Source: a virus
Direction: 5' to 3' (one strand)
Virus record (IMG/VR): IMGVR_UViG_3300044996_000210
Span: 1-40,941 of that record
Length of the DNA: 40,941 nt
The position numbers and the translations under genes were made by a program. Below the pieces are notes generated by a model. The model ran no database searches and was not told the DNA's origin. It saw only the letters and a program-made list of their open reading frames with translations. Position 1 is the first letter of the stretch; each line of letters starts with the position of its first letter. Of this stretch, positions 3,946 to 40,292 are shown in pieces.

Positions 3946-6666
3946 ATGGCTGTTTTAATTTCTCGTGCAAATAATAACCTTACTGCAAGTGCCACATGGG
4001 CATTGGTAGATAGTACGTCACTTTTGGATTCGGAAGCGGGAAGTGATACTTTAACAACTGCCTATTCAGGAACAAGGACTGCTGCTTTCACTCCTGGGGC
4101 GATTGTAGTTGATGGAATTGCTGTAAAACCTTACAGTGTAGCTGCTTCACCTTCTGGTACAATAAGTGTACATATTGCATTAAATTCAGACCATTCTGAG
4201 GTTGCAGGAACTGAAGTAACTATAAATGTTGCCGATCTTCCTACTATAGCTACACCAGGTACAACAAATGAGGGAGGATGGGTTTTATTCAAGTTAGCAT
4301 CTCCTGTTACTTTATTAGCAGCTACCGCATATGAATTAGAAGCTAAAACTTCTGTTGCTTCTCAAGTTGCTCTAAATAGAAACGCAACAACTGATAATTT
4401 CTCAAGACTTCTTCGTACCACCACAACCCAAGCTCCTGTAGCTACAGATGTCATGCACGTTATGGGTGAACACACAGGAGCAGGAACGGGAAATGATATC
4501 ACGGTAACTATGGATCAGACTGCAAGTACAGATTATGGAGCAGGAACGGATAGCGTTGTTGCTTTAACAGTAAACAAACGTGGAAATTTGAATTATGCTT
4601 ATGCAGCTTCTACTAATTATTATTTAAAACTTTCAGGAGATGCGATTGTTTATAACGGTGGTACATTCACTATTGGTACAGTTGCTAATCCCATACCTAG
4701 AACTGGAACTGCTGTTTTGGAATTTGATCCTGTTGCTGATGGGGGTATGGGACTTATTGCAAGGAATGGGTCAACTTTAACCATTCAAGGACTTTCACGG
4801 ACAAGTGGAAAGAATGTAATCGCTTGTAAATTAAATACGGATGAAGCTGCTAATTCTACGTCTTTAGGAGTAGATACGGATACAGGATGGTTGGATAATG
4901 ATGTAATTGTAGCGGGAAAAACGCAAAGAAGTGGCACTAATCAAATTGAAAGTGGAACTATGAATGGTGCTGCAACTGCTGACACTTTAACTGTTGACGG
5001 ATTTGCAGGGACAGGAGGCGGTATTCAATATGCAAAATCAGGAACGTCCCCAACTCAATGTCATATTGGGCTTATTACTCGTAATGTCATGTTTAGATCA
5101 GCTACTTCAACCCTAATGACTTATTTGAATGTAAAAGCTACATCAACAGTTGATATTGACTGGTGTGATTTTAGGTATATAGGCGAAAATGCAACAGGTA
5201 AAAAAGGAATTGAAGTTGAAACAACAACTGGCTCATTTAATATGCAATACTCAACTATTAGAGATACTGAAGATCAATGTTTTATAACTACTGGAACAAC
5301 AACAAATAATATTACAGTATCCAATAATGTCTGGTATAACGTAAATAATATAAAAACTGCCGGTATATATCCTTTTGTTATTGCTGCAACTTCAGGTACA
5401 AGTTGGACTGTAACATATAATTACTTCTTTGGATGCAGTATTGATGGAACAAGTAGGGCAGTTGTTCAACTAAATGATGTAGGAGGAAATTTCTCTTATA
5501 ATGTTTTCACAGGAACAATAAGTGGAAACAGTATTTCAACAAATGAAGGGGCAACTATTGGGACTTTTTCTAATAATGAGATATATGGTGAAGGATCAGG
5601 ATATGGAATAATAATTAGTGCTAATGGATTATCAGGAACAATGACGAATAATAAATCATGGAGAAATTGGTTGGCTGGGTTTAACATTAATGCAGTTGGA
5701 GCAAATTTAAATGTTAACAATTTTACTGTATTTGGAAATCAAACTCAGAATATATATGTTGCAACAGCAGGGTCAATTACTTTTAATAATTTAGCAACAA
5801 ATGGAGATTCAAGTGCTGCTACTACAAGTGGAGTCAATGTTCCAAGTAATGCTGCTTTTGGTAAATTAACTTTTGTAAACTGTAATTTTAGTCAAACATC
5901 GGGAATTTTAACTGCTCATACTAATGATCTTAGAATACAAGGTTCAAGTTGTGGTCTAGATATACTTTTTGATAATTGTCTTTTTGGCGCCTCTACTTTA
6001 GTAAATGGATATAGTAATTTGATTAATAATACAGGAATCATAAAATTTAATAAATATAATCAAACTACTAATAAACACTTATGGTATGGAGCTTATGGTA
6101 TCGCTCAAGCCACAGGCACAGGACTTACAGATACTAATGTTAGAACTGCCTCATCTCTTGCTCTACGGATAGCTCCCGAAAATTCATCAACTGGCTTCTC
6201 ATGGTCATTTAAAATACTCGCAAGAGCTTCAACGTATGTTGGGGTTGGAGGATATATTCAAAAAAATGCAGCTTTTGGGACTGATCTTTGTACTGTTGAC
6301 TTATATCTTCCAGGTTCAACAACACCAGACGCTACCTACACGATGCCGAATGATACGAATTGGAATGTATTTAATTTAGCAGCTAATTATACTGGTACGG
6401 TAGATTTATATGCCACAGTAACTATAACAGCTAAATCAGCAACTGCCAGTGCATATATCTATGTAGATGATATTTATAATGGTACAAATAAAATAACTGC
6501 ATTGGATGTATGGGATCAAGGGCAACCATCGCCAATAATGTATGAAGAATTAGGTGATGCTGCGGGAGTGTGGGCAGTACTTCAAAGTACTCAAACAACA
6601 GCAGGTACGATGGGTAATAGATTAAAGAGTGCATTAACAACACCTCTTTTTATTGCATTGAAGTGA
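3946..6666 (+). CDS. Large tailspike/fibre with beta-helix repeats
   Basis: This 906-residue protein is probably the tailspike or adhesin that binds or cleaves host surface glycan. The N-terminal 200 residues are a Ser/Thr/Ala-rich beta region. Residues about 370-640 show repeated short Asn-rich strands (NNITVSNNVWYN, GTFSNNEIYG, GTMTNNKSWRN) typical of a right-handed parallel beta-helix. A carbohydrate-binding-like beta-sandwich region follows. No catalytic residues could be assigned. It is the last gene before the glycan island, so the two may be functionally linked. Confidence 0.75.
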   Translation: MAVLISRANNNLTASATWALVDSTSLLDSEAGSDTLTTAYSGTRTAAFTPGAIVVDGIAVKPYSVAASPSGTISVHIALNSDHSEVAGTEVTINVADLPTIATPGTTNEGGWVLFKLASPVTLLAATAYELEAKTSVASQVALNRNATTDNFSRLLRTTTTQAPVATDVMHVMGEHTGAGTGNDITVTMDQTASTDYGAGTDSVVALTVNKRGNLNYAYAASTNYYLKLSGDAIVYNGGTFTIGTVANPIPRTGTAVLEFDPVADGGMGLIARNGSTLTIQGLSRTSGKNVIACKLNTDEAANSTSLGVDTDTGWLDNDVIVAGKTQRSGTNQIESGTMNGAATADTLTVDGFAGTGGGIQYAKSGTSPTQCHIGLITRNVMFRSATSTLMTYLNVKATSTVDIDWCDFRYIGENATGKKGIEVETTTGSFNMQYSTIRDTEDQCFITTGTTTNNITVSNNVWYNVNNIKTAGIYPFVIAATSGTSWTVTYNYFFGCSIDGTSRAVVQLNDVGGNFSYNVFTGTISGNSISTNEGATIGTFSNNEIYGEGSGYGIIISANGLSGTMTNNKSWRNWLAGFNINAVGANLNVNNFTVFGNQTQNIYVATAGSITFNNLATNGDSSAATTSGVNVPSNAAFGKLTFVNCNFSQTSGILTAHTNDLRIQGSSCGLDILFDNCLFGASTLVNGYSNLINNTGIIKFNKYNQTTNKHLWYGAYGIAQATGTGLTDTNVRTASSLALRIAPENSSTGFSWSFKILARASTYVGVGGYIQKNAAFGTDLCTVDLYLPGSTTPDATYTMPNDTNWNVFNLAANYTGTVDLYATVTITAKSATASAYIYVDDIYNGTNKITALDVWDQGQPSPIMYEELGDAAGVWAVLQSTQTTAGTMGNRLKSALTTPLFIALK

Positions 6667-6707: not shown

Positions 6708-6860
6708 ATGAAGAAGAAAGAAGAAGTCATACCTCAATATATCCCCATGAAATGTCCTGTATGTTCGGGTCATGGAACAGTAAATTACGGACAACAAGTT
6801 TGCAAGTCTTGTAATGGATTAGGATACATAAAAGTACCCGTGAAGGAGGAAAATGACTAG
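6708..6860 (+). CDS. DnaJ-type zinc-finger small protein
   Basis: This 50-residue protein carries two CxxCxGxG-like knuckles (CPVCSGHG at 16-23 and CKSCNGLG at 32-39), the pattern of the DnaJ central zinc-finger domain, without any J domain. It probably binds zinc and may act as a small folding or binding adaptor. Its stop overlaps the epimerase start by 8 bases, making it the first gene of the glycan operon. Confidence 0.75.
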   Translation: MKKKEEVIPQYIPMKCPVCSGHGTVNYGQQVCKSCNGLGYIKVPVKEEND

Positions 6861-7638
6861 TTACATTTTCGGTTCTTCAGGTTTCATAGGCAGACATCTT
6901 GTGAAAAGGCTTCTTAAAGAAGAACACAAAGTAATAGAGATTCATCATAATCAGCAATATCAAATAAAAAAAGCAGACTATATCTTTTATCTTTCTTCTT
7001 ATGGAAATCACTATTATCAGACAGATAAACATGAAATAATTAAAGCAAACCTTGTAGATTATTATGACCTTTTAAAGAAAACTAAAAAAGTAGATTATAA
7101 AAACCTTATTTATTTTTCTTCATCTTCAGTAAATTTACCAGTACAGACTTTATATTCAGAATCTAAATTAATAGGTGAACTTATGGGTAGTGTATATGCT
7201 GAAAAATACAGTAAAAATATATCATCTATAAGACCTTATTCGGTTTATGGTGAGGGTGAAGCTACATTCAGATTCATTCCTAAGGTCATACAATGCCTTA
7301 AAAACGGTTTAACTTTAAATTTAAGCAACGGATGGCATGACTGGATATATATAGATGATTTTATTGATGCTTTAATGGAAGTTTTATATTCAAAAATAAC
7401 ATTTGCAGATAATCCTATTAATATAGGAACAGGAATAACTACATCAAATCAAGAAGTGGTTGAACTTCTAAAAGAAATAAGCAGAAAAGACTTAAAAATA
7501 TCTAAAGATAACAAAAACAAAAGAATATATGATACTAAGAACTGGAAAGCGGAAAAACACATGGAGTATTGGTTTGACTGGAAACCAAAATATTCACTAA
7601 AGGAAGGACTAACAAAATTATGGATACAGTCTTTGTAA
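6853..7638 (+). CDS. NAD-dependent nucleotide-sugar epimerase/dehydratase
   Basis: This 261-residue extended short-chain dehydrogenase probably acts on a nucleotide sugar (epimerase, dehydratase or reductase) in making an activated sugar for the island's transferases. The dinucleotide motif GSSGFIG is at residues 7-13, Ser 90-92 and the catalytic YSESK (Tyr101, Lys105) are present, and a substrate-domain YSVYGEGE segment follows. It is shorter than typical family members (about 300-330). Its substrate cannot be told from sequence. It overlaps the next gene by 19 bases. Confidence 0.88.
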   Translation: MTSYIFGSSGFIGRHLVKRLLKEEHKVIEIHHNQQYQIKKADYIFYLSSYGNHYYQTDKHEIIKANLVDYYDLLKKTKKVDYKNLIYFSSSSVNLPVQTLYSESKLIGELMGSVYAEKYSKNISSIRPYSVYGEGEATFRFIPKVIQCLKNGLTLNLSNGWHDWIYIDDFIDALMEVLYSKITFADNPINIGTGITTSNQEVVELLKEISRKDLKISKDNKNKRIYDTKNWKAEKHMEYWFDWKPKYSLKEGLTKLWIQSL

Positions 7639-8363
7639 CAGCAGCAAACGCAACATTTCAAAACATGGCTAATGGTTTAATGAACTCAATTAAGAAGTTT
7701 TATCCTGACATGCCGGTATTCTGTCATCCATATAACGACACGATAGGAACAGCAGATAGAGGAACACATTATGATTTTAATTATGATTCAGGAAGATCAT
7801 ATGATTACCTTTTGCCTTATTTTGAAAAGTATAAAAGGGTAATTGATGTAAATGCAGATTATGTAATGACCAATTACTGTCCTGAATTATTTGAAGATTA
7901 TGAATACCAGATGCCTTATAACAATATAGATTTTTATTGTGATAAGAGTTTTGATCCTCCTAGGAAATACATTCAAAACAGTCTGATAGTTTGTACCAAT
8001 CCTGAAATATTTAAGACTTTAACGGAAATGAATAAAAAGGAAAGGGCAACTACTAATCATCCTCACTATGATATGAATACATCCAATGATTTATTTTATT
8101 CCGGAAAATACAAAACAAGGGCTTTATCTTTTCCTGACAAATCATACGGGATAGAAGAAATGCACGTTTACCATACTATGTATACTTCAGGTGATGATTT
8201 ATATGTAACGGACCATGTAAACAACCAACACATTACTAAAAAGGTTTGCATGATGCACTTTTCAGGAGTACAACCCTGGAAAATACCATCAGAAGGTAAA
8301 ATATTGTTTGATAATATCTTAAATGAAGCGGCAAGAAACAGAATAAAGGAATTAATACAATGA
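7620..8363 (+). CDS. Putative GT-A glycosyltransferase (GT8-like)
   Basis: This 247-residue protein resembles GT8-type nucleotide-sugar transferases: an N-terminal VFVTAAN strand, a VIDVNAD segment at about 74-80 in place of the DxD metal site, and a late MHFSG motif (residues near 217-221) that resembles the second metal-binding His of the family. The NAD variant of the DxD motif makes activity less certain. It overlaps the epimerase and abuts the transketolase subunit gene, so it is part of the island operon. Confidence 0.65.
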   Translation: MDTVFVTAANATFQNMANGLMNSIKKFYPDMPVFCHPYNDTIGTADRGTHYDFNYDSGRSYDYLLPYFEKYKRVIDVNADYVMTNYCPELFEDYEYQMPYNNIDFYCDKSFDPPRKYIQNSLIVCTNPEIFKTLTEMNKKERATTNHPHYDMNTSNDLFYSGKYKTRALSFPDKSYGIEEMHVYHTMYTSGDDLYVTDHVNNQHITKKVCMMHFSGVQPWKIPSEGKILFDNILNEAARNRIKELIQ

Positions 8364-8980
8364 AAAACGAACTTATTTTAAGGGTACTTGAAATATCACA
8401 TAAATATAAACTATCCCATATTTCTTCTTGTTTAACTGCACTAGGAATAATAGAAAAGATATACGATACAAAAAGGCATGATGAACCTTTTGTATTATCA
8501 AGCGGTCATGCGGCAATAGCTTTATATGTGATGATAGAAAAATACTACTTCAAAGATGCGGAGGCTTTATATTTAAAACATGGAGTACACCCCAATAGAA
8601 ATTTAGACGATAAAATATATGCTTCAAGCGGTAGTTTAGGTCATGGAATAGGAATAGCAGTAGGTATGGCTATTGCTGATAAAACAAGAAATGTATATGT
8701 ACTTCTAAGTGATGGTGAATGTATGGAAGGGAGTGTATGGGAAGCGTTAAGAATAGCGGGGGAACTTAAACTGGAAAATCTGAGGGTAGCTATAAATGCA
8801 AATGGAATGGGAGCTTATTCAGTAATAGATGCGGATTTGTTGGATACAAGGATACAGATGTTTTACCCCTCTTTGATGATAAAAACCAATTTAAACCAAT
8901 TTCCGGCATACCTCAATGGTATTGAAGGACATTATCACATATTAACAGATGAGGAATACGAAGAATGCAAATCGGCTTAA
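8360..8980 (+). CDS. Compact transketolase N-terminal subunit (TPP-binding)
   Basis: This 206-residue protein matches the pyrophosphate-binding half of transketolase. Visible marks are LSSGH (46-50), the family hallmark [16 protein letters not shown] (91-106) and the TPP motif [13 protein letters not shown] (117-129) followed by N146 and N148. Gly of the usual GDG is Ser here. It is shorter than normal N-terminal subunits (about 270). The matching pyrimidine-domain half is at 9458-9934, with an acetyltransferase gene between. Together they would transfer two-carbon ketol units to make an unusual sugar. Confidence 0.88.
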
Positions 8981-9465
8981 ATAGTTATCTTATTAACAAA
9001 ATAGATGTTTCTAAAAAACTAGATGTCACTATTGGAAATTATTCTCAAATAGCTGAACAAGTTTATTTTCATTGTAATTTAGATCATCCTTCAGTTCTAG
9101 ACAGAAGATTAGTTGCAAATTATCCTTTTAATGAGAAGTTAGGAAGTAAAGATTATCCTACTTGTGGAGGTTCACAAAAAATAATAATAGGAAATGATGT
9201 ATGGATTGGTAGGGAAGTAAAAATACTAGATGGTATAAATATAGGAGATGGTGCAATAATAGCCGCTTATAGTGTAGTAACAAAAGATGTTCCTTCATAT
9301 TCAATGGTAGCAGGTAATCCAGCTAGAATTAAATATTATAGATTTAAAAAAAATGTAATCGAAAAACTATTAAAAATTAAATGGTGGGATTGGGATAAAA
9401 AAACAATTATAGAAAGAATAGAAGATTTTAAAGATATTAATAAATTTGTTGAGAAATATGCGTAA
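8965..9465 (+). CDS. Hexapeptide-repeat O-/N-acetyltransferase
   Basis: This 166-residue left-handed beta-helix acyltransferase (CatB/LbH family) probably acetylates a sugar. The hexapeptide region runs from about residue 70 to 120 ([35 protein letters not shown] in two parts) and ends in the family's VAGNPAR motif, followed by a helical C-terminus. It sits between the two transketolase halves, overlapping the first by 16 and the second by 8 bases, so translation of all three is coupled. Confidence 0.9.
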
Positions 9466-9934
9466 AGTATTTTTTGAAGAATTATATAAACAGATGAAAG
9501 CAAATAATAATATTTATGCTTTGACTGGAGACTTAGGTTTCATAGGTTTCGACAAAATTAAAAAAGATTTTATTAATAGATTTATTAATTGTGGAGCTTC
9601 GGAACAAAGCATGTTAGATATAGCAGTAGGACTGGCGTATTCAGGTAAAATACCTGTAGTTTATTCAATAACTCCTTTTTTGATTTACCGGGGATTTGAA
9701 ACCATAAAACTGTATATAAACCATGAAAAGTTACCAGTAATTCTTGTAGGAAGTGGTAGAAATAAGGATTATAAAACAGACGGACCATCACATGACGCTA
9801 CGGATATTCCAGCTATTTTAAAGGCATTACAGAGCCTCAAAACATACTTCCCTAAGTCAAGTGAGGAAATACCAGAATTGCTTGATAAGGTTATTAAGGA
9901 ACAATTACCAACATTCATAAGTTTAATTAGATGA
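9458..9934 (+). CDS. Compact transketolase pyrimidine-domain subunit
   Basis: This 158-residue protein corresponds to the pyrimidine-binding domain of transketolase. GDLGF (24-28), the GASEQ motif containing the catalytic Glu49 and a [17 protein letters not shown] stretch (58-74) are conserved, as is the SHDATDIPA segment (111-119). The usual C-terminal third domain (about 120 residues) is absent. The ATG at 9458 is chosen because it overlaps the previous stop. Partner of the 8360-8980 subunit. Confidence 0.86.
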
Positions 9935-10341
9935 AAAGAGATACTTCAGGAAAAACAGTAGCTTTTACCCATAATGAGGATGTATTTACGCTTGATAAAT
10001 ACGATTTATTTGATTTGAAAGATGAAGCGGAAAAAGAAGGTAAAGCAAGGATACTACTTCACAAGGACAGGAAAGAGAAGGTACAGGAAATGATAATAGC
10101 CATGAAAAGAGGTTATAGTGTACCTTTGCACTCCCATAATAAAACGGAATCCTACCATGTGATTGAAGGTGTAATGGAAGTCGAAACACAAAAAGACAAT
10201 GTATTTTCAAAAACTATGTTAGGTGATTTTGATAGTGGATTGCCTTTCGTAATTAGATTACAACCTAATATACCGCATTGTAATAGAGCAATTACACCGA
10301 TAGTCGTATTTTATGAAGTATTGGAAGGACCTTTTATTTAA
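9931..10341 (+). CDS. wbuC: WbuC-family cupin metalloprotein
   Basis: This 136-residue cupin carries the WbuC-type signature: ARILLHKD (39-46), VQEMIIAMKRG (51-61), PLHSHNKTESYHVIEG (65-80; His67, His69, Glu73, His76 as likely metal ligands), a later His116 and the C-terminal FYEVLEGPF. WbuC proteins occur in O-antigen and capsule clusters, but their reaction is not established. It overlaps the transketolase subunit by 4 bases. Confidence 0.82.
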   Translation: MKRDTSGKTVAFTHNEDVFTLDKYDLFDLKDEAEKEGKARILLHKDRKEKVQEMIIAMKRGYSVPLHSHNKTESYHVIEGVMEVETQKDNVFSKTMLGDFDSGLPFVIRLQPNIPHCNRAITPIVVFYEVLEGPFI

Positions 10342-10357
10342 TTTATAAGGAGAAACT

Positions 10358-11017
10358 ATGGCTCTTAATGCTTTATTCTATCCAAAAGGAACGGATGAAA
10401 AACCGATAGACTTTGACAGTCTATATATTCCTTATATTTACAAAGAAATTTACTTAGAGGGAATATATGTAGATATATTCAATACACAGAAGGACTTAGT
10501 CATTATGGATGTTGGGGCAAATTTGGGTATAGTTACACAATACATGAGGAAGTACGCAAAACAGATTTATGCTCTGGAACCTTCTAAAGATCATTTTGAA
10601 GCTCTTTCAAAGAATATAGAATTTAACAAATGGGATAATGTAAAAGCCTTTAATATGGCTATTGCTGATAAAGACGGTGAAATGACATTAAACAATAACA
10701 ATAGTAATAGGACTTGCCATTCACTTACTCTAAATTACAATCAAGGTGGGGAACAGGTAAAAACTATAAGGTTTGATACCTTCTTAAAGGAAAACAACAT
10801 AGAACAAGTGGACTTCTGCAAGTTTGATGTGGAAGGTGCGGAGGATATGATACTTTACCACGAGGGATTTATTTCAGTTGCTCCTAAAATCAAATCAATA
10901 ATGATTGAATTTCATCATCCTACATGGCAGAAATTAGTGGAACATTTAATGAGATTGGGTTATGAAGCACGAAGATATAACTCAAGTGCTATAGTCGTAT
11001 TATTTACAAGAAAATGA
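10358..11017 (+). CDS. FkbM-family SAM-dependent methyltransferase
   Basis: This 219-residue enzyme probably methylates a hydroxyl on a sugar or glycan. The SAM-binding motif I is MDVGANLGIVT (50-60), ALEPSKDHFEAL provides motif II, and the FkbM-specific KFDVEGAE segment is present, followed by MIEFHHP. AAGGAGAAACT precedes the ATG, one of the few strong Shine-Dalgarno sites inside the island. It overlaps the following glycosyltransferase by 4 bases. Confidence 0.9.
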   Translation: MALNALFYPKGTDEKPIDFDSLYIPYIYKEIYLEGIYVDIFNTQKDLVIMDVGANLGIVTQYMRKYAKQIYALEPSKDHFEALSKNIEFNKWDNVKAFNMAIADKDGEMTLNNNNSNRTCHSLTLNYNQGGEQVKTIRFDTFLKENNIEQVDFCKFDVEGAEDMILYHEGFISVAPKIKSIMIEFHHPTWQKLVEHLMRLGYEARRYNSSAIVVLFTRK

Positions 11018-11757
11018 AAGTAGCTTTTTTTACCATCGCATCAGATAGTCACTATTATGGGTGCGGTACACCTGTTCTTATCAATTCTTTCAAACGATAC
11101 CATCCTGATATAGATTTAATTGTATTCCGTCAAGATATGATAGATAAGGTATTCAAGGAAAAGAACATAAACTTCTATACTGCTAAACCAACATTCGCTA
11201 AATTACTTATCGATAAATATGATTTAGTCGTAAATATAGATGCGGATACTATTATTCTTGATAGATTAGAAAAGATATTGCAAGGTGATTATGATGTAGC
11301 TTGTCCAAGTAACAAAAACGATTATGAGAATATGAGTATTGATAACGTACGGGAAGATATGTTTTTACAGGCTGGTTTAGTAGCATCTACTAATAAACGC
11401 TTTTGGGATATATGGGAAGAAGCAAATAAGGATGCCATGAAGTATGTAGCACAGGAAAATACAGTCATGAATCTTATCTGGTATAACAATTCGGAAGTAC
11501 AAAAGATGAATAAAATAATACTTGATAAAGATAAGGACTATTGGGGGTGTAAAAGTCTAAATCGTGAAGGTGAGTTTTATATTTCAGATAATAAAGTTAT
11601 GTGCCGGGGTGAACAAGTATTTGTATATCATCATGCAAAGGGAGCAAATGCTATGCCGAAGTTGCAATTTCAATATATGGGTTTTCGACAGGAAGTAGTT
11701 GAATATCTTATTAAAATAGGACATGAAGGGATAAGTGTATGCGTAAGCCATATATAA
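11014..11757 (+). CDS. GT-A glycosyltransferase (GT8-like)
   Basis: This 247-residue transferase has a clear GT-A layout: N-terminal strand FFTIASDSHYYG, the DxD metal site in NIDADTII (D76, D78), and a C-terminal HHAKG motif that would bind the metal. It likely transfers a sugar from a nucleotide donor to the island's glycan. It is related in fold and length to the 7620-8363 protein, but keeps the canonical DxD. It overlaps the next gene by 19 bases. Confidence 0.8.
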   Translation: MKVAFFTIASDSHYYGCGTPVLINSFKRYHPDIDLIVFRQDMIDKVFKEKNINFYTAKPTFAKLLIDKYDLVVNIDADTIILDRLEKILQGDYDVACPSNKNDYENMSIDNVREDMFLQAGLVASTNKRFWDIWEEANKDAMKYVAQENTVMNLIWYNNSEVQKMNKIILDKDKDYWGCKSLNREGEFYISDNKVMCRGEQVFVYHHAKGANAMPKLQFQYMGFRQEVVEYLIKIGHEGISVCVSHI

Positions 11758-12464
11758 TAGCAACTCCTCAATTTGAAATCAGTTCAGGCGGAATCCGGGT
11801 AATGTGGGGACTTTATGGATGGTTGCTTTCAAAAGGTGAGGAAGTTTATGTTAATTGCAGGTTAGAGAATCGAGAAAGTATAGCAATTTATCCGGAGATA
11901 TTTCATGGAAATCCGGCAGAAGGTACAACAATAGTAAGGTATATATTAAATAAACCGGGAGTAATGGGAAGTTATGGAGTACCGGGACCTACACAGTTTG
12001 ATCCAAACGATAAACTGTATTACTTTTCAAGGATATTTGCCCCTGATGATAACTGTAAGATACTGTTTCTTCCTATATGTAATTTAAATTTATTCAAGGA
12101 CCAGAAGAAAAACAGGACAAAAACCTGTTATCTTGTAGGCAAAGGACAAAATACATTCAAACACCCACAGGATGCAATACTTATAGATAGAAGATTCTCA
12201 AACGACCAACAGGCATTAGCAGATGTACTTAATGAGTGCCATACTTTCTATTCATATGATTCAGTAACAGCTATGTTTGAAATAGCAAGATTATGCGGTT
12301 GCAAGGTAGTAAGGTTTGATACTTCGGTTGACCTTTCAAAGTATGAACCGGGATTAAATGGAATTGATAGTGAACTTGATACGAACAAGTTTAGGGAACA
12401 CTATATTGAAATGGTAAAGCTATTTGACAAGGAGATTGACAACTTCATATGCCAGACACAATAA
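11739..12464 (+). CDS. Putative GT-B-like glycosyltransferase
   Basis: This 241-residue protein starts with SSGGIRVMWGL (15-25), the glycine-rich donor or acceptor loop found at the start of several GT-B glycosyltransferases, and later has a CYLVGKGQNTFKH segment and a YDSVTAMFEIARLCGC stretch resembling the donor-binding EAxxxG region. It is short for a two-domain GT-B enzyme. Its place between two other glycosyltransferases supports the call; the acceptor is unknown. Confidence 0.65.
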   Translation: MRKPYIIATPQFEISSGGIRVMWGLYGWLLSKGEEVYVNCRLENRESIAIYPEIFHGNPAEGTTIVRYILNKPGVMGSYGVPGPTQFDPNDKLYYFSRIFAPDDNCKILFLPICNLNLFKDQKKNRTKTCYLVGKGQNTFKHPQDAILIDRRFSNDQQALADVLNECHTFYSYDSVTAMFEIARLCGCKVVRFDTSVDLSKYEPGLNGIDSELDTNKFREHYIEMVKLFDKEIDNFICQTQ

Positions 12465-13525
12465 GTATTTACGGATTTCCTTCCCATACAACTAAAGACA
12501 GGATATCAGGTGTGGATTTTGCAAGGATAATCCAGCCAATCCAACACTTAAAGAAAGTGGAAGGATTCAAAACTGAATTATATGATCCTAACGAGGAGGA
12601 ACCTTCCGTATGGACTGAAATAATACCTAGAACGGATATTATCTACTTCAATTACCTTACAATGGATTTCGGGTATGCGGTAATGGGTATGTTAGCAAGA
12701 CAACATTATTGTAAACTGGTAATGGATATAGATGATAATTTATGGAGTATTTTACCTGATAATTCGGCTTATAATGTACTTAAAAAAGGCTCATCAGGAT
12801 TAAGTATAATCACTATGATATTAAATGATGTAGATTATGTAACTTGTACCAATAACTATCTAAGAAATGCAATCATAAACAATTCATATAAAAGATACGA
12901 CCAGGTTAAGGTATTCCCAAACTATATTGACTTAAACCTTTATAAAACAAGACTTCCTTTTAAGGATACCCACGAAATAGTAATTGGACACTTCGGAAGT
13001 TCAACCCACTATACATCACTTGGAAATGAGGACTTTGTAATGGCTATGGATAAACTCATGCACGAATACCCGAATATAAAATTTATAACAATAGGTTCTT
13101 TCTTCGGAGCTTACAAGGAAAAATGGGGACAAAGATATGAGTATAGTTTTGGTGATATGGATGTAATTAAATGGATAGAGAAAATGCCTGATATGTTAAG
13201 TGATATTGATATATTGGTAGCACCTCTTAATGTAAATATTTATAATAGGGCAAAATCCAGTATTAAGTTTCTTGAAAATTCAAGCTATAAAAAACCTGGT
13301 TGTTGGACCAAAATCAGGCAGTATGAGGAAATAGTAAATGATGGAGTAAACGGTTTTCTATGTGGAAATAGTGAAGAATGGTACACAAACTTAAAAAAAC
13401 TGATAGATGATAAAGAGTTAAGAAAAAAGATGGGTGAGGAAGCATTTAAAACAACAGAACAATGGACTATAGATGGACATATAAACGAATATGCTGACTT
13501 TTTCAGGGGAATACTTGACAAATAA
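12449..13525 (+). CDS. GT4-like glycosyltransferase
   Basis: This 358-residue GT-B enzyme has an N-terminal domain with GVDFARIIQP, a MDIDDNLW segment typical of GT1/GT4 relatives in capsule loci, a domain-linking VFPNYIDLNLY, and a C-terminal donor domain with HFGSS, SDIDILVAPL and the SSIKFLE motif carrying the conserved Glu. NDGVNGFLC then matches the usual nucleotide-binding loop. It is the last gene of the island; its end contains the -35 box of the next operon's promoter. Confidence 0.85.
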   Translation: MPDTISIYGFPSHTTKDRISGVDFARIIQPIQHLKKVEGFKTELYDPNEEEPSVWTEIIPRTDIIYFNYLTMDFGYAVMGMLARQHYCKLVMDIDDNLWSILPDNSAYNVLKKGSSGLSIITMILNDVDYVTCTNNYLRNAIINNSYKRYDQVKVFPNYIDLNLYKTRLPFKDTHEIVIGHFGSSTHYTSLGNEDFVMAMDKLMHEYPNIKFITIGSFFGAYKEKWGQRYEYSFGDMDVIKWIEKMPDMLSDIDILVAPLNVNIYNRAKSSIKFLENSSYKKPGCWTKIRQYEEIVNDGVNGFLCGNSEEWYTNLKKLIDDKELRKKMGEEAFKTTEQWTIDGHINEYADFFRGILDK

Positions 13526-26800: not shown

Positions 26801-27670
26801 ATGGATATACAAATACAAACACAAGATTGGTATAAAGAGTTAGTAGATGAGTGTAAAGCGATAATTACTGAGGCGGTATTCACAAGCAGATGGGCGTTGG
26901 TTGAAGGTTATTGGAACTTAGGTAAGAGGATAAGGGATGACTTGAATTGGAGTAAAGGACAACAAAATAGCCTATATAATTCGCAAGACCTTGCGAAATC
27001 TATAGGACTATCGGAAAGAACTTTAAACTATGCTTGTGCTACTTACGATAAATACCCCGATATTCAAACACTCCCTGAAGGAAAAAATATAACTTGGAAT
27101 AAGCTAATAACTAAATATCTACCGCAATCTAAACAAGAAGAACCTATCCCTTTACCAGATGGAAAATATCAAGTAATTTATGCTGATCCCCCTTGGCCTT
27201 ATGAGGAACATGGAGTAAGTGTATCTCAAAACTATGGGAACGTGGAACGACACTATCAAGATATGACTATTGAAGAAATAAAACAATTACCAGTAAAAGA
27301 CTTAGCTTTAGAAAATTCAGTCTTATTTATTTGGGTTACTTCTCCTAAATTGAATGAGGTTTGGGATATTATAACTGCTTGGGGCTTTGAATATAAAACT
27401 TCTTTTGTTTGGGATAAAGTAAAACACAATTATGGTTATTATAACAGTGTACGACATGAATTATTACTCGTTTGCGGTAGAGGAAAATCAACACCAGATA
27501 ATTCTAAACTTTATGATAGCGTACAGACAATAGAACGCTCAGAAATTCACTCACAAAAACCGGAAGAATTTTATAAAATTATTGAGGACTTATATTACGG
27601 GCCTAAAATAGAGCTTTTTGCCAGGAATAAAAGGCAAGGATGGGAGGTTTGGGGAAATGAAGTTAAATGA
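26801..27670 (+). CDS. MT-A70 family adenine methyltransferase
   Basis: This 289-residue protein joins an N-terminal helical domain (1-105; RWALVEGYWNLGKRI resembles DUF1016-like or recognition domains) with a C-terminal MT-A70 methyltransferase. The catalytic DPPW is at 129-132 (IYADPPWPY), followed by FIWVTSPKLNEV and ELLLVCGRGK. It likely makes N6-methyladenine in DNA, for protection or regulation. The next gene overlaps by 14 bases and encodes a nuclease-like protein. Confidence 0.9.
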   Translation: MDIQIQTQDWYKELVDECKAIITEAVFTSRWALVEGYWNLGKRIRDDLNWSKGQQNSLYNSQDLAKSIGLSERTLNYACATYDKYPDIQTLPEGKNITWNKLITKYLPQSKQEEPIPLPDGKYQVIYADPPWPYEEHGVSVSQNYGNVERHYQDMTIEEIKQLPVKDLALENSVLFIWVTSPKLNEVWDIITAWGFEYKTSFVWDKVKHNYGYYNSVRHELLLVCGRGKSTPDNSKLYDSVQTIERSEIHSQKPEEFYKIIEDLYYGPKIELFARNKRQGWEVWGNEVK

Positions 27671-34298: not shown

Positions 34299-34672
34299 CA
34301 ACTAAACAACAAATAGCAATAGAAAAGGTCGTGGAAAATCATGGAAATGTTTCACGAGCTATGTTGGAGGCTGGTTATGATCCAACAACTGCTAAAAATC
34401 CTTCAAACTTAACTAAATCTAAAGCATGGAAACAACTACTTGAAGAACATCTACCTGATGGTAAATTACTAAAGACACATTCTGAGGCATTAGACGCAAC
34501 CAAATGGAATGATTTTACTGGGGAACGGGAACCAGATCATCAAACAAGAATAAAGGCTGTAGATTTAGGTTACAAGTTAAAAGGTAAATTAAGAGATAAT
34601 CCAATATTTGCTATTAATGAAATGAAAATGGAGATAATAGATACAAATGGTACACAAGTTGATATTAAATGA
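34295..34672 (+). CDS. terS: Terminase small subunit
   Basis: This 125-residue protein is the DNA-recognition subunit of the packaging motor. Its N-terminal helix-turn-helix-like region (QQIAIEKVVENHGNVSRAML, then EAGYDPTTAKNPSNLTKSKAW) is typical of small terminases, followed by a helical oligomerisation region. It overlaps the large subunit gene by 26 bases, the common arrangement. ATGA overlap with the previous gene. Confidence 0.85.
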   Translation: MTTKQQIAIEKVVENHGNVSRAMLEAGYDPTTAKNPSNLTKSKAWKQLLEEHLPDGKLLKTHSEALDATKWNDFTGEREPDHQTRIKAVDLGYKLKGKLRDNPIFAINEMKMEIIDTNGTQVDIK

Positions 34673-35972
34673 TTGGCAAAAAGAAGTAGCAATAGATAGC
34701 CATAGGTTTAGAATAGTCTGTGCAGGAAGAAGAAGCGGGAAGTCGGTATTATCAAGGCTTATTGTTTTAAATTGGGCTTTAAAGAACATTGGGACTTATT
34801 GGATAGTAAGCCCAAACTATAAACAAAGCAAGATGATTCATTGGCGAGAGTTACAAAAAGAGATTCCGTTTCAATGGATACTTAAAAAGAATGAAGTCGA
34901 ACTTTCTATCACACTTAAAAACGGAAGTATTATTGAACTTAAAGGAGCAGAAAATCCGGATGCTTTACGGGGTGTCAAACTACGTGGGTTGGTTATTGAC
35001 GAAATCGCTAGCATCAGAAATTGGGATTGGTTATGGTTGGAAGTATTACGCCCGACACTCACGGATTATCAGGCACCTGTACTCTTTATTTCCACGCCTA
35101 AAGGATACAACCACTTTCACGAGCTATATAACACTGGGCAAACCGGGAATAACATTGGAGATTACAAAAGTTGGCGGTTTACAAGCTACGAAAACCCCTA
35201 CATCGCTAAGGAGGAAATAGACAATGCTAAAAAAGAACTTACGGAAGATACCTTTTATCAGGAATATATGGCTGACTTTCGGAAATATACGGGGTTGGTT
35301 TACAAGGAATTCCAAAGGGAAGTCCATGTCATCGAACCATTTAATATATCTGAAGGATGGAATAGGTATCGTGGATTTGATTTCGGAAGCACTAACCCCA
35401 CTGTCTGCCTGTGGATTGCGGTTGACCAAGACGAAAACTGGTATATCTATGACGAACACTACCAAACAGGTCAGACGATTGATTACCACGCAGGGGTGGT
35501 TAATTCTAAGACCAGGGGAAACATACAAGCTACATACGGAGATCCTTCTGGTGCGCAATGGATTTCTGAGTTTGCTTCCAGAGGAATTTACATCACTCCC
35601 GCAACAAAAGAAATCGGGACAAACTTCAATAGTTGGGTGCGATTTGGAATTGAGAAAGTGTCAGAGAAGCTTAAAGTCGTTCCAGGACATAACGTCCAAA
35701 CCGGGGAAGAAAATAGATCATTTATGGCAGGGGGAATGCCCAGTTTGTTTATCTTCAATAATTGTGTCAATACCATCCGAGAATTTGAAACCTACCGATG
35801 GAAAGAAAAAAGCGTATCACAAGCACAAGACTTGAACGAGCCGGATGTGCCAGAGAAGGCCAATGATCACGCTATGGATGCACTAAGATATTTTGCAGTA
35901 AGTTACAAAAAGCCTATAGATGACATTGATGAACTACCAGACGATACAAAGAGGTTAAAAGGATGGTATTAA
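34647..35972 (+). CDS. terL: Terminase large subunit
   Basis: This 441-residue packaging ATPase-nuclease has Walker A AGRRSGKS (26-33), Walker B GLVIDE (about 113-118), the coupling motif ISTPKGYNHFHELY, and RNase-H-like nuclease acids in GFDFGSTNP, TYGDPSG and NDHAMDALRYF. All key residues are present. The start could also be TTG at 34658. It is followed not by the portal but by an accessory block. Confidence 0.95.
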   Translation: MVHKLILNDWQKEVAIDSHRFRIVCAGRRSGKSVLSRLIVLNWALKNIGTYWIVSPNYKQSKMIHWRELQKEIPFQWILKKNEVELSITLKNGSIIELKGAENPDALRGVKLRGLVIDEIASIRNWDWLWLEVLRPTLTDYQAPVLFISTPKGYNHFHELYNTGQTGNNIGDYKSWRFTSYENPYIAKEEIDNAKKELTEDTFYQEYMADFRKYTGLVYKEFQREVHVIEPFNISEGWNRYRGFDFGSTNPTVCLWIAVDQDENWYIYDEHYQTGQTIDYHAGVVNSKTRGNIQATYGDPSGAQWISEFASRGIYITPATKEIGTNFNSWVRFGIEKVSEKLKVVPGHNVQTGEENRSFMAGGMPSLFIFNNCVNTIREFETYRWKEKSVSQAQDLNEPDVPEKANDHAMDALRYFAVSYKKPIDDIDELPDDTKRLKGWY

Positions 35973-36015
35973 ATTATGACTTAAAAATTATTAGTTAAAT
36001 TATTAAAAATAAAAT

Positions 36016-36717
36016 ATGAATCTAAATATACAAGGTAAAAAAGCACTAGTTACAGGTGGAAGGCAGGGTATAGGCAAAGCAATAGCAGATGGTTTGCGTG
36101 ATGAAGGGGTGGAAGTATTTACCACTTCAAGGAAGGATGGTTTTGACTTAATGGATGAAAACGGACCAAACAAAGTATTTCAAACCTTCAAAGATATAGA
36201 TATTTTAGTAAACAATGCCGGATCAACCTTTGAAATAAGCGATCCTTATTGTCCAATATCAGACTGGCGTAAATTATTAAGACTTAATCTGGAAGTACCG
36301 ATTGAACTTAGTAATTTATATCTTCCTTGTATGAAACAAAAAGGATGGGGAAGGATAGTAAACATATCATCAGTAGCAGGAAAAGAAAATAATGGACCTG
36401 TTCCTTTTTGTACTTCAAAAGCAGCACTAGTAGCTTATACACATTGTATGGGTAGAGTACTAGCAACGGAAGGAGAAAATATAATAATGACAGCAGTATT
36501 GCCTGGAGTTATTTTAACAGATGAAGGACATTGGAAGAATCTACTTGAAACAGATCCAAACAGAGTAAACCAATACATAAAAGAAAGAGTACCGCTTGGA
36601 AGATTGGGTACTCCTGATGAAATAGCACCAACAGTTGTTTATTTATGTAGCCAACAGGCTAAATTCTCACACGGAGGTATATTTCCGGCTGATGCAGGAG
36701 TTATGAAACAATTTTAA
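36016..36717 (+). CDS. Short-chain dehydrogenase (SDR), catalytic Tyr replaced
   Basis: This 233-residue classical SDR has the cofactor motif TGGRQGIG (13-20), NNAG (66-69), Ser118/119 in NISSVAG and the active-site helix. The usual YxxxK is FCTSK here, with Phe131 in place of the catalytic Tyr and Lys135 kept. It resembles 3-oxoacyl-ACP reductase-like enzymes, but activity is doubtful. It lies between terminase and portal, outside the glycan island, and could still act on a sugar or be a non-catalytic partner. Confidence 0.85.
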   Translation: MNLNIQGKKALVTGGRQGIGKAIADGLRDEGVEVFTTSRKDGFDLMDENGPNKVFQTFKDIDILVNNAGSTFEISDPYCPISDWRKLLRLNLEVPIELSNLYLPCMKQKGWGRIVNISSVAGKENNGPVPFCTSKAALVAYTHCMGRVLATEGENIIMTAVLPGVILTDEGHWKNLLETDPNRVNQYIKERVPLGRLGTPDEIAPTVVYLCSQQAKFSHGGIFPADAGVMKQF

Positions 36718-36742
36718 CTATGAAGAAGAAGGAGGTGATTTT

Positions 36743-37003
36743 ATGAAAGATAGTCAATATTTACAAAAAGCATTTATTGAAGCCTGTAAACAGGCAGAAG
36801 ATTGGGTGAGAGTGGGTGTTCCATCAAATGATAAAGACCATGCGAGAGTAGCTATGGGTGTAATTGGTTCTTATACAAGATTAAAAGCTGTTGAAAATAA
36901 TGAACAGATGATAAAAGTATCCATAGCCCGTTCAATGGCAAATAATTCAGATGAAATGAAAGAAGCACTTAAGAAAAGTTTACCAGAGTATGTAAATAAT
37001 TAA
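36743..37003 (+). CDS. Small helical protein, function unknown
   Basis: This 86-residue protein is helical (QYLQKAFIEACKQAEDWVRV, then VGVPSNDKDHARVAMGVIGS). AGGAGGTGAT precedes the ATG, the best Shine-Dalgarno site of the window. It directly precedes the first G/T-rich array. No family was recognised. Confidence 0.6.
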   Translation: MKDSQYLQKAFIEACKQAEDWVRVGVPSNDKDHARVAMGVIGSYTRLKAVENNEQMIKVSIARSMANNSDEMKEALKKSLPEYVNN

Positions 37004-37009
37004 GATTTA

Positions 37010-37164
37010 GATTTAATGGTGCGGTGCGTTGTGGTGAAATGAGGTTTGGTGAGGTAAGGTGGGGTGTTGTAAGGCGGGATAGGGTAATGTAAGGAATTAG
37101 TTGTGATGTTGGGTGTTGTATTGTTTGGTGAAGTAGGAAAGGGTACTGTAAGGTGATGTTTGGT
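37010..37164 (+). repeat. G/T-rich pentanucleotide array 1
   Basis: After GATTTAATGGT (37010-37020), the + strand runs in five-base units with consensus RNGGT (for example GAGGT, AAGGT, GGGGT, GTTGT) for about 28 units, with one base phase shift after 37093. Only four C occur in about 149 bases. There is no gene. The bias is strictly on one strand. It ends 32 bases before the RAMP-like gene. Confidence 0.85.
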
Positions 37165-37196
37165 TTTTAATAATCATTTAATACAAGGAGTAAGGT

Positions 37197-37733
37197 ATGC
37201 TTAAGTTTAATGTTCATGTAAAAGGGATTGCTCCCTTATTATTTAACAGATTTCCTGATGAAGATCCCGTAAATAACGAAGGTACAAAAAAGAAAAAAGC
37301 AGTGCTTTCCAAAGAAGAACAGGTGGAAATATCCTTATATAGGGATAGTAAAGGAAAAATATATCAACCTGCTGAACATTTTGTAGGAGCTATGATAAAA
37401 GCAGGGATAAATTTCAAACTTGAGGGTAAGAAAACTTATAAGGATGTTATGAAGGGAGGACTATTTATTGATCCAATGAAGATAGAACATTTAAGCCAGA
37501 AATATGTAACAGATTGGAGATCAGTAGTCATACCTTCTACACATGGTAGAGTAATGAAAGGTAGAGCAAGGATGGATAATTGGGAGCTTAAATTTACCAT
37601 TACTTGTCTTGATGAAAGAGCAACTGCACAAGATATAAAAGATATTCTTATGTATGCAGGAAACTACATAGGTGTTGGTGATTACAGACCTAGATATGGA
37701 AGATTTGAGGTAAGTAAGTTTAATAAGGTTTGA
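37197..37733 (+). CDS. RAMP/Cas7-like fold candidate protein
   Basis: This 178-residue protein begins VHVKGIAPLLFNRF (7-20) and has QPAEHFVGAMIKAG (about 57-70), and ends with a glycine/arginine loop GVGDYRPRYGRF (159-170). This layout, a beta-strand start, a helix with a small-residue pattern and a G-rich C-terminal loop, is like RAMP-superfamily (Cas7/Cas5/Cas6) RNA-binding folds. Similar proteins occur in other phages without known function. It is bracketed by the two G/T arrays. AAGGAGTAAGGT precedes the ATG. Nucleic-acid binding is inferred. Confidence 0.6.
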   Translation: MLKFNVHVKGIAPLLFNRFPDEDPVNNEGTKKKKAVLSKEEQVEISLYRDSKGKIYQPAEHFVGAMIKAGINFKLEGKKTYKDVMKGGLFIDPMKIEHLSQKYVTDWRSVVIPSTHGRVMKGRARMDNWELKFTITCLDERATAQDIKDILMYAGNYIGVGDYRPRYGRFEVSKFNKV

Positions 37734-37746
37734 ATTAAATAAACAT

Positions 37747-37988
37747 ACTGTTGGGTGATGTTGGGTTGGGTGGGATTTGGTGATGTGAGTTAAGGTACGG
37801 TATGGTAGGGTAATGTAAGGTCTGGATTTAATGGTACGGTACGGTGATGTATGGTGAGATGGGGTATGGTGAGGTAGGGTGATGTTTGGATTTAATGGTA
37901 AGGATTTAGTGGTGATGGTGATTAGGTTATGTTTTGTGATGTTTTGTTAGGTGGGGTCAGGCAGGGTGAGGTAATGTGTGGATTTAAT
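37747..37988 (+). repeat. G/T-rich pentanucleotide array 2 with punctuation
   Basis: The unit RNGGT recurs about 40 times with several phase resets. Three copies of GGATTTAAT occur (37824, 37888, 37980), the first two extended to GGATTTAATGGTA, and a related GATTTAATGGT begins array 1. C is very rare on this strand. No gene is present in this 268-base gap between 37734 and 38001. Confidence 0.85.
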
Positions 37989-38001
37989 AATTCTTACCTT
38001 T

Positions 38002-38202
38002 ATGTCGTCTTTTATAACAACACAACTAACCTATACTACAGTAATAGTACCAAAGTATTTTAAGCATAACTCTATTGTCTATGATAAGTTATTACAGGAG
38101 ATAAAAAAGATAAACAACGGATTACTAACGTTTGATATCAAAGTAAGCGATAAGTGTATTACTGATTTAGTAATACGTGATAATGGAAAATTTAAAACCT
38201 GA
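38002..38202 (+). CDS. Small protein with hydrophobic start
   Basis: This 66-residue protein (MSSFITTQLTYTTVIVPKYF start) has a weak membrane-like N-terminal segment (4-20). The ATG at 38002 is chosen because an upstream GTG at 37978 lies in the array. It overlaps the next gene by 20 bases. No family was recognised. Confidence 0.45.
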   Translation: MSSFITTQLTYTTVIVPKYFKHNSIVYDKLLQEIKKINNGLLTFDIKVSDKCITDLVIRDNGKFKT

Positions 38203-38356
38203 AGATAAACTGCTCTTAATAATTCACAAAGAGGTAACCGATATAGAATACGGTATGATTTCAGTAAGTATAATAGTAAGAAACAACATACCAATACTTA
38301 ATTCACTCAATATCCATAGGGCAAAACGTATTAAATTTCCATTGAACTTGACATAA
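38183..38356 (+). CDS. Small protein before the portal promoter
   Basis: This 57-residue protein (MENLKPEDKLLLIIHKEVTD start) has a C-terminal basic region (RAKRIKFPLNLT). Its last codons contain the -35 box of the portal promoter. No family was recognised. Confidence 0.45.
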   Translation: MENLKPEDKLLLIIHKEVTDIEYGMISVSIIVRNNIPILNSLNIHRAKRIKFPLNLT

Positions 38357-38376
38357 TAGTTTATAAAGTGTTATAA
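38348..38376 (+). promoter_or_regulatory. Strong sigma70 promoter for portal/head genes
   Basis: TTGACA (38348-38353), a 17-base spacer and TTATAA (38371-38376). Downstream it shares TATAAGTAAA then (C/T)TG with the promoter at 13515. Initiation near 38383 would meet the terminator at 38404. Confidence 0.78.
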
Positions 38377-38403
38377 GTAAACTGTCTTACAGTAAATTAT
38401 TGT

Positions 38404-38432
38404 GGACTGGCCAAAACACCAGTCCTTTTTTT
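38404..38432 (+). terminator. Intrinsic terminator directly before portal ATG
   Basis: GGACTGG (38404-38410) pairs with CCAGTCC (38419-38425), followed by TTTTTTT (38426-38432). The portal ATG comes at once at 38433 with no Shine-Dalgarno. A small ACTGT/ACAGT hairpin precedes it. The portal must be expressed by read-through, so antitermination is likely. Confidence 0.8.
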
Positions 38433-40292
38433 ATGGCTGATTATCTTGAACTCAAAGACCAAATAAACTCCAGATACGGCAATTCCGACACTTATTTATC
38501 AACCAAACGTGAAATGTGGGACGAATATGAATATATTTTTCACAACACATTAAATGACAACATATCAGATAAAACAAAGTCCCAAACTTTTGATCCAAAA
38601 CTAGCAACATACACTTTAGAGAGAGAATATAGGGTCATGGCTCAACTTCCTACAGGCAAGGTAAGGGGAATATCCAAAAACGACAAGGGATCAAGTAAGT
38701 TAATGAACCTTATTCTTGATAAATATATCCTTCCTAATGCCAATGCAGGATGGGATTTTCTTACAAAATGCAGAATGGTTGACAGGTACTCCAATATTTA
38801 CGGTAACTTCTTTGTAATGGTAGATTTGGATGTCAAACAAAATGGTTACAAGGGACCTGATATGTGGCTGATTCCAATAAGGGATGTATTCCCACAGGTA
38901 GGAGCAGTAAGCCTTGATGATTCAGAATACATAATAATTCAAACTTGGAGGAATTTATCTTTCTTTAAGGACTTATCTAAAAGGGAAGGATTTAAAAACG
39001 TAAACAAGATAGTTGATAAACTAAAAGAAGTGGCAGGAGATAAGGAAGAAAAGGATACTACGGAAATGTCAATTCGGGAACAGGACCACTTTGAGAATAC
39101 AAGTACACAAAAAGGAAAAGGATTCTACAAGGTTCTTTCAATGTATGAAAGAGATAGATGGGTGGATTATGTACCGGCAGCAGATGAAATCATGAGGGAC
39201 AGCAAAAACCCGCATGATAATGGTGAATTGCCTGTAGTAAACAAATTCTCAATACCTCTAGTTGATGACGTTATAGGAATGGGAGATTTTGAAAGAGGAG
39301 CTTCCATGCAAAAGACTCTAAATAGTACATGGAATTTATATTTGGATGCAGTAAAGATGTCAATATTTCCTCCAGTACTTGTAAACAAAGATAATATCGC
39401 TTCCATGTCATCCATACAATTTGGACCAGCAGCTAAATGGTTAGTAAGAGGTAACGTAGGGAATGTTGCACAAACTTTAAACTTGACTCCTCAAGGAATA
39501 AATACTTTCAATAACACAAACCAGAATGTAAATGCTTCAATACAAAATCTTTTTGGTACTTCGGATACTTCAATTACTTCATCTACAGAACCGGGTTACG
39601 GAAAGACTCCTGAAGCCCTTAAAATGCAGGCAGCAAGACAAAATTCAAGGGATGTAACCGACAGATTTTACATGGAACAGTTTTTAACCAAAGTAATAAA
39701 CAAATTTGTTAATTTAATGTCAAAAAGCAAAAGCAAAAGTGTAGCAATAAGGATGTTTGAGGATGAAATAAAGGAATTAACCAAACAGTATCCTGAAATG
39801 GAAGAAATGTATGATGAAAATGACGGCAAATTAACTATAAACAAAGGCAAGATGGGTTCAATGCTCTATGATTATGAAATTATTTCAGGTTCGACCTACA
39901 GAATAGATGAAGAATCCCAAAACCAAAACCTGATACAGTTGTTTCAAATCCTGACTAAAGACATGCAGATGGGACAACAGGGAATTACCTCCCCAATTAT
40001 TGAAGCCTTAAAGGCAGAAGGCAAGAAAACCAACTTAGGTGAGTTAATTACAAGGCTGTTTGCAAATTCCGGATTGCAGGATTTCGATAAAATCATAACA
40101 GAAGAAGGCGAAGAAGAAAAAAATGACAACATATTAAATGAACACAAAGCACAACTTCAAAATACAATAAATCAAATCTTGGGTACTGGTACGCCAGAAC
40201 AAATGATGAATCCGAATGAAATACCGGCACAACCCAATATGCAACAGATGACACCACAAGCACCAGGTCAAGGGGGTGTTAATTTTGGGTAA
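38433..40292 (+). CDS. Portal protein
   Basis: This 619-residue protein is the probable dodecameric portal at the packaging vertex. It has the usual plan of an N-terminal stem/wing region with REYRVMAQLPTGKVRG and DRYSNIYGNFFVMVDLD, a central strand-helix body with FGPAAKWLVRG, a region before GTSDTSITSSTEPGYGKTPE, and a helical C-terminal crown rich in Gln/Pro at the end. Length and place (before scaffold and capsid) fit. The ATG at 38433 is preferred because it follows the terminator T-run directly. Confidence 0.78.
   Translation: MADYLELKDQINSRYGNSDTYLSTKREMWDEYEYIFHNTLNDNISDKTKSQTFDPKLATYTLEREYRVMAQLPTGKVRGISKNDKGSSKLMNLILDKYILPNANAGWDFLTKCRMVDRYSNIYGNFFVMVDLDVKQNGYKGPDMWLIPIRDVFPQVGAVSLDDSEYIIIQTWRNLSFFKDLSKREGFKNVNKIVDKLKEVAGDKEEKDTTEMSIREQDHFENTSTQKGKGFYKVLSMYERDRWVDYVPAADEIMRDSKNPHDNGELPVVNKFSIPLVDDVIGMGDFERGASMQKTLNSTWNLYLDAVKMSIFPPVLVNKDNIASMSSIQFGPAAKWLVRGNVGNVAQTLNLTPQGINTFNNTNQNVNASIQNLFGTSDTSITSSTEPGYGKTPEALKMQAARQNSRDVTDRFYMEQFLTKVINKFVNLMSKSKSKSVAIRMFEDEIKELTKQYPEMEEMYDENDGKLTINKGKMGSMLYDYEIISGSTYRIDEESQNQNLIQLFQILTKDMQMGQQGITSPIIEALKAEGKKTNLGELITRLFANSGLQDFDKIITEEGEEEKNDNILNEHKAQLQNTINQILGTGTPEQMMNPNEIPAQPNMQQMTPQAPGQGGVNFG

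Follow-up and report, generated by a model that had tools for sequence, protein, structure and literature searches.

A divergent VIPR locus in a tailed phage

The locus described here, within a 40,941-bp stretch of viral DNA from an IMG/VR record (hereafter, the window), is a divergent new VIPR, a kind of system that is itself already published. Read as a whole, it is very probably the VIPR locus of a tailed phage, in which arrays of five-base units are genes for guide RNAs (vrRNAs), and the guides, coated by the protein Vipr, block the transcription of competitors. VIPR (Viral Interference Programmable Repeat), reported for the first time in a preprint of April 2026 (PMC13142463, bioRxiv 2026.04.26.720920), is presented there as a form of RNA-guided DNA recognition that phages employ against rival phages. 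According to this account, the vrRNAs consist of 9-16 alternating GGY/NN units bound by Vipr; it is the NN pairs that recognize double-stranded DNA, skipping one base for every two read; the skipped base, namely, every third one, usually falls on the codon wobble position; and, as published for SUSP1, genes of competing phages are repressed upon binding (PMC13142463). The preliminary description of the window, which knew of no established description for the pairing of such arrays with a RAMP-like gene, is superseded in this respect by the preprint. The results obtained here directly concern the assignment of Vipr to its family and fold, the arrays with their register, and the association of same-strand arrays with vipr throughout the family.

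The five-base arrays

Two stretches of the window, one upstream (positions 37004-37175) and the other downstream (37745-37989) of vipr, follow a five-base period, with lag-5 identities of 0.49 (z = 4.8) and 0.52 (z = 6.3), respectively, and strong harmonics at lags 10 and 15. None of 2000 dinucleotide-preserving shuffles matched the values at these lags, with mononucleotide shuffles concordant, and the two stretches give the highest lag-5 signal anywhere in the window; no lag-5 periodicity was detected in the vipr gene or the neighboring ORF. The five-base G/T arrays noticed in the preliminary description are thus real, their coordinates and lengths having been right within a few bases, and the same holds for the runs of up to 15 units, the longest in register, and for the scarcity of C on the + strand (6 of 182 bases in the upstream array and 8 of 250 in the downstream one).

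On the + strand, which is also the strand of vipr, the register comprises 65 units of the form [G/T]GT-NN. Position 1 is G in 44 of the 65 units, T in 19 and A in 2; position 2 is G in 57, A in 6 and T in 2; position 3 is T in 62; positions 4 and 5 are variable, with an entropy of 1.7-1.8 bits. The original suggestion that selection for spacing maintains the period despite base drift is incomplete, given that, under the VIPR rule, the variable bases would be target information rather than drift. Exact GGY units number 37 of the 65 (57%; 60% in the automatic parse), compared to 93% in L139, the closest relative, and a VIPR family median of 76%, whereas the TGY share, 22% versus a median of 3% in the automatic parse, is the highest among the 81 loci that have 20 or more units. 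The change at position 1 is nearly always from G to T, and position 2 is rarely altered, a pattern more suggestive of tolerance than of random decay. The preprint permits "a related consensus" to GGY/NN in other types (PMC13142463). It is conceivable, although we hold this only tentatively, that the window represents a distinct VIPR variant, with a KGT-relaxed scaffold that admits T but not A or C, a Vipr that reads this scaffold differently, minimal A/T-rich separators in place of a folded tail, and a new accessory gene in the form of the 86-aa ORF located upstream. Among other candidates for the identity of the arrays, coding sequence was rejected, with no long ORF spanning them, as was a known structured RNA, with zero Rfam matches; no tRNA was found.

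The Vipr protein

The vipr gene (37197-37733, + strand) encodes a 178-aa single-RRM RAMP protein of the ancestral Cas7-like kind, with the G-loop GVGDYRPRYGRF. This loop is the signature of the family, GxGDxRPxxGRF, in which G155, G159, R164, G168 and F170 are invariant across 20 Vipr homologues, and the window Vipr retains every family-invariant residue. In a phmmer search against PDB chains, the only good hit was 36pp, "SUSP1 Vipr protein" (E = 2e-10), to which the window protein is about 29% identical, and a family profile built from 19 homologues, with SUSP1 left out, recovered SUSP1 Vipr at 1e-35. The window Vipr also matches PHROG 4652 (function unknown; 4e-22) and, in a viral library, a "Cas system-associated RAMP superfamily protein"; PADLOC and NCBIfam gave zero matches.

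The AF2 model of the window Vipr (pLDDT 90.4, pTM 0.84) was compared with the PDB using Foldseek, and the best matches were type VII Cas7 and type III Csm subunits, with E values from 4e-7 to 1e-6. The predicted fold is that of a RAMP protein (Cas7/Csm3), and the RAMP character suggested in the preliminary description is right.

Anatomy of the predicted guide RNAs

Parsing by register divides the arrays into predicted vrRNAs on the + strand, of which U1 and U2 lie between the 86-aa ORF and vipr, and D1, D2 and D3 lie downstream of vipr. U1 (37018-37101) consists of 15 pentamer units (37018-37092) followed by GGAATTAGT, and its variable pairs read GC GC GT GA GA TT GA AA GG GT AA GG AG (AA AA). 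U2 (37102-37171), with 12 units (37102-37161) followed by GGTTTTTAAT and the pairs GA TG GT AT TT GA AG AG AC AA (GA TT), is the weakest of the arrays and includes one GAAAG unit. Downstream, D1 (37749-37832) contains 15 units (37749-37823), with the pairs TG GA TG TG GG TT GA GA AA AC AT AG (AA AA CT); D2 (37833-37896) contains 11 units (37833-37887), with AC AC GA AT GA GG AT GA AG (GA TT); and D3 (37920-37988), preceded by a segment where the register is broken (37897-37919), contains 12 units (37920-37979), with TA TA TT GA TT TA GG CA AG GA (AA GT).

The separators are short and A/T-rich: GGATTTAAT closes D1, D2 and D3 alike, and variants close U1 and U2. Counted from separator to separator, each predicted vrRNA has 11-15 units, within the VIPR range of 9-16. 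The final two units before the separators are alike among the arrays, GGT-RA-TGT-NN in most, and may be part of a constant tail; no stable or significant fold was predicted at the vrRNA tails.

Linkage of arrays and vipr across relatives

The association of arrays with vipr was approached from both sides. A search with the array pattern only fetched 120 viral loci, some of them short pieces, and 26 of the 120 encode a Vipr relative (tblastn E < 1e-3), with the arrays close by and, in almost all cases, on the same strand as the gene. Conversely, a search with the protein only yielded 80 viral and 38 genome loci, for 79 and 38 of which linkage was counted, an array being called when at least 7 of 10 units were GGY in register no more than 1.2 kb from vipr. 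Same-strand arrays were found near vipr in 73 of the 79 viral and 31 of the 38 genome loci, that is, in 104 of 117 altogether, compared to 0 of 117 for arrays on the opposite strand and 3 of 117 for distant control flanks. The homologues consistently have arrays in their flanks. Of the outcomes named in the preliminary description as refuting it, namely, homologues devoid of arrays, a missing lag-5 signal and a fold foreign to RAMP proteins, none was obtained. In the relatives, arrays occur on either side of vipr, and this combination of strict strand agreement with freedom of side fits transcribed RNA.

Genomic context

The locus is situated between the terminase and portal genes of a record that also encodes a major head protein. 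The region 34647-40292 has zero nucleotide relatives in the phage collection searched. Directly upstream of the arrays and vipr is the 86-aa ORF (36743-37003, + strand), which has zero matches in Pfam, PHROGs and the phage collection. Weak homologues were detected by tblastn in L139 (1512-1793, E = 4e-8), directly upstream of vipr, and in L027 (2364-2684 on the minus strand, E = 4e-5), before an array and vipr. This ORF may be an accessory gene of vipr or, alternatively, belong to the small core genes of the phage. The window locus yielded no clear accessory gene, and no nuclease or helicase is adjacent. In another relative, L140, a small nuclease-like ORF with the motif VEVDGHASHF, recognized by eye, lies between vipr (4001-4534) and the next array and is likely a nuclease-type accessory gene.

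Several other genes of the window deserve mention. A FabG-like short-chain dehydrogenase (36016-36717; Pfam adh_short, 4e-31) is encoded between the terminase and the VIPR locus, and an MT-A70 type DNA methyltransferase (Pfam, 2e-24) at 26801-27670. A sugar and cell-surface cluster (6853-13525) includes a nucleotide-sugar epimerase, a hexapeptide transferase, an FkbM methyltransferase and a glycosyltransferase, along with split transketolase halves (8360-8980 and 9446-9934).

Targets and the one-base-skip rule

The variable NN pairs most likely represent the target sequence read with one base skipped. The first variable base is a purine in 49 of the 65 window units, an excess resembling that at first codon positions, such that NN may correspond to codon positions 1 and 2 of the coding strand. 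When 9-unit NNx cores of the window guides were compared with 2.9 million viral contigs, no convincing target emerged: the cores matched 6 contigs for U1, 9 for D2, 1 for D3, and 0 for U2 and D1, and all of these hits look like chance. Beyond the core, the U1 and D3 matches are at chance level, and those of D2 fall in unrelated proteins (dUTPase-like, coiled-coil and others). A search tolerating 3 mismatches, for U1 in 50 related virus records and for D1 and D3 in 27, likewise found nothing, and self-targets and targets in the collected loci were not above shuffled guides, save for loci that had been chosen with the same pattern in the first place. As negative evidence, this is weak, because an uncultivated phage may have rivals that the collection does not contain.

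Among the 333 automatically decoded guides of related loci, one from another branch of the family provides a positive case. When one base is skipped, guide L166:3694 fits two related viruses, with 21 of 22 positions matching at L173:3184 and 19 of 22 at L171:3538, and in the same search, neither skip-0, nor skip-2, nor shuffled guides produced anything at this level. The site belongs to the gene immediately preceding vipr, and its register follows the reading frame, so that each skipped base is a wobble base; the copy of this gene in L166 itself, 60% identical, matches at 16 of 22 positions only. Such matches are expected by chance roughly 0.006 times, assuming uniform base composition, about 4.5 million positions and 333 guides, a value that A/T-rich composition would raise somewhat. 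At the level of sequence, this case supports a scenario of VIPR against VIPR, with discrimination between self and non-self, and so appears to lend independent support both to the published one-base-skip rule and to the existence of conflict between VIPR-carrying viruses.

Alternative explanations

Could the locus be a relic, with Vipr still intact but the arrays degrading and no longer guiding? The lower share of exact GGY units than in L139 or the family at large, the register break at 37897-37919, the GAAAG unit in U2 and the lack of found targets for the window guides would all fit such decay. However, the departures from GGY are position-specific (19 T and 2 A at position 1, 6 A and 2 T at position 2, with T in 62 of 65 units at position 3), whereas random loss should strike both G positions equally and favor G-to-A changes; moreover, the register persists for 15 units, and the family-invariant residues of Vipr are all in place. 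We therefore regard decay as unlikely.

Still less plausible, indeed highly improbable, is the possibility that the arrays are protein-binding DNA repeats, such as iterons, a replication origin or a packaging site, with Vipr acting on single-stranded or double-stranded DNA. The G/T-rich composition of one strand and the position between the terminase and portal genes are compatible with this explanation, but the GC skew climbs steadily across the window without a switch at the site, aside from the G excess of the arrays themselves, and the replication origin entertained in the preliminary description finds no support. Furthermore, the arrays of the relatives are on the vipr strand on whichever side of the gene they lie, the variable dinucleotides differ from array to array, and published VIPR relatives express the arrays as RNA (PMC13142463). 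Finally, given their low complexity and near lack of C on the + strand, the arrays might be imagined as a low-complexity expansion next to which the RAMP gene lies by coincidence; this explanation is refuted by the linkage test (104 of 117 loci versus 3 of 117 control flanks), in which array and protein occur together, strictly on one strand, in about 100 divergent loci, with the control flanks almost empty, and its probability is negligible.

Proposed mechanism

Under the preferred reading, that of a functional VIPR locus, what we infer for the window is expression, ribonucleoprotein assembly, targets and biological role. The arrays and vipr would be transcribed together, giving rise to about five vrRNAs, each with 11-15 pentamer units, and short A/T-rich elements, such as GGATTTAAT, would punctuate the series. 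Each vrRNA would be covered by copies of the RAMP protein Vipr, of about 20 kDa, presumably with one copy for every five-base unit; the protein would grip the conserved GGT/TGT triplets, and the two variable bases of each unit would pair with DNA, with every third base, usually the codon wobble, skipped under the published rule. Binding would then block gene transcription in competing phages or satellites, by extrapolation from SUSP1. The assembly of the RAMP protein on the array as RNA, proposed in the preliminary description, agrees with the VIPR ribonucleoprotein as the preprint describes it (PMC13142463) and was correct in essence, so that most of the concept had been grasped from the sequence itself.

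Comparison with known systems

Seven VIPR types, I-VII, are listed in the preprint (PMC13142463). In a midpoint-rooted tree of 98 Vipr proteins, which samples part of the family, the window Vipr pairs with that of L139 (support 100/99), and SUSP1 and Pseudomonas prophages belong to a 27-row clade (100/100) that does not include it. By this placement, the window Vipr falls outside type II (SUSP1/Pseudomonas).

With type II VIPR, as found in Escherichia phage SUSP1 and a Pseudomonas fulva prophage, the window locus shares the small RAMP protein Vipr, same-strand GGY/NN pentamer arrays, at least one vrRNA upstream and several downstream of the gene, encoding by a phage, and a minimal locus. It differs in that the motif admits either G or T at position 1, in the short, A/T-rich separators in place of a folded pseudoknot tail, in the lack of a SUSP1-like vap1 after vipr, and in the location within the packaging module. 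The closest relative, L139 (IMGVR_UViG_3300012001_000060), is an uncultivated phage with a Vipr 62-63% identical to that of the window and with the same order, terminase - small ORF - vipr - arrays - portal, as well as the same GGATTTAAT punctuation. The arrays of L139, however, are downstream only, consist of near-perfect GGT/GGC units and carry other guide sequences, whereas the window has an additional pair of arrays upstream, between the small ORF and vipr, two genes that overlap at the vipr start in L139. The window locus, found independently from raw sequence, thus adds a VIPR lineage well apart from the characterized SUSP1 type, and it comes with this close sister and about 100 more loci in which the array accompanies vipr in the same orientation.

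VIPR has been proposed as the precursor of CRISPR. Class 1 CRISPR-Cas itself was rejected for the window, where there are no CRISPR direct repeats and no Cas domains in the approximately 30 proteins scanned, a subset of the ORFs. The resemblance to the RAMP subunits of class 1 systems (Cas7/Csm3 and type VII Cas7) consists in a RAMP fold that coats a guide RNA at a fixed base period. This period is six bases in class 1 CRISPR, compared to five in the window, and the CRISPR spacer is continuous, whereas in the window, the guide information is interleaved with the repeat.
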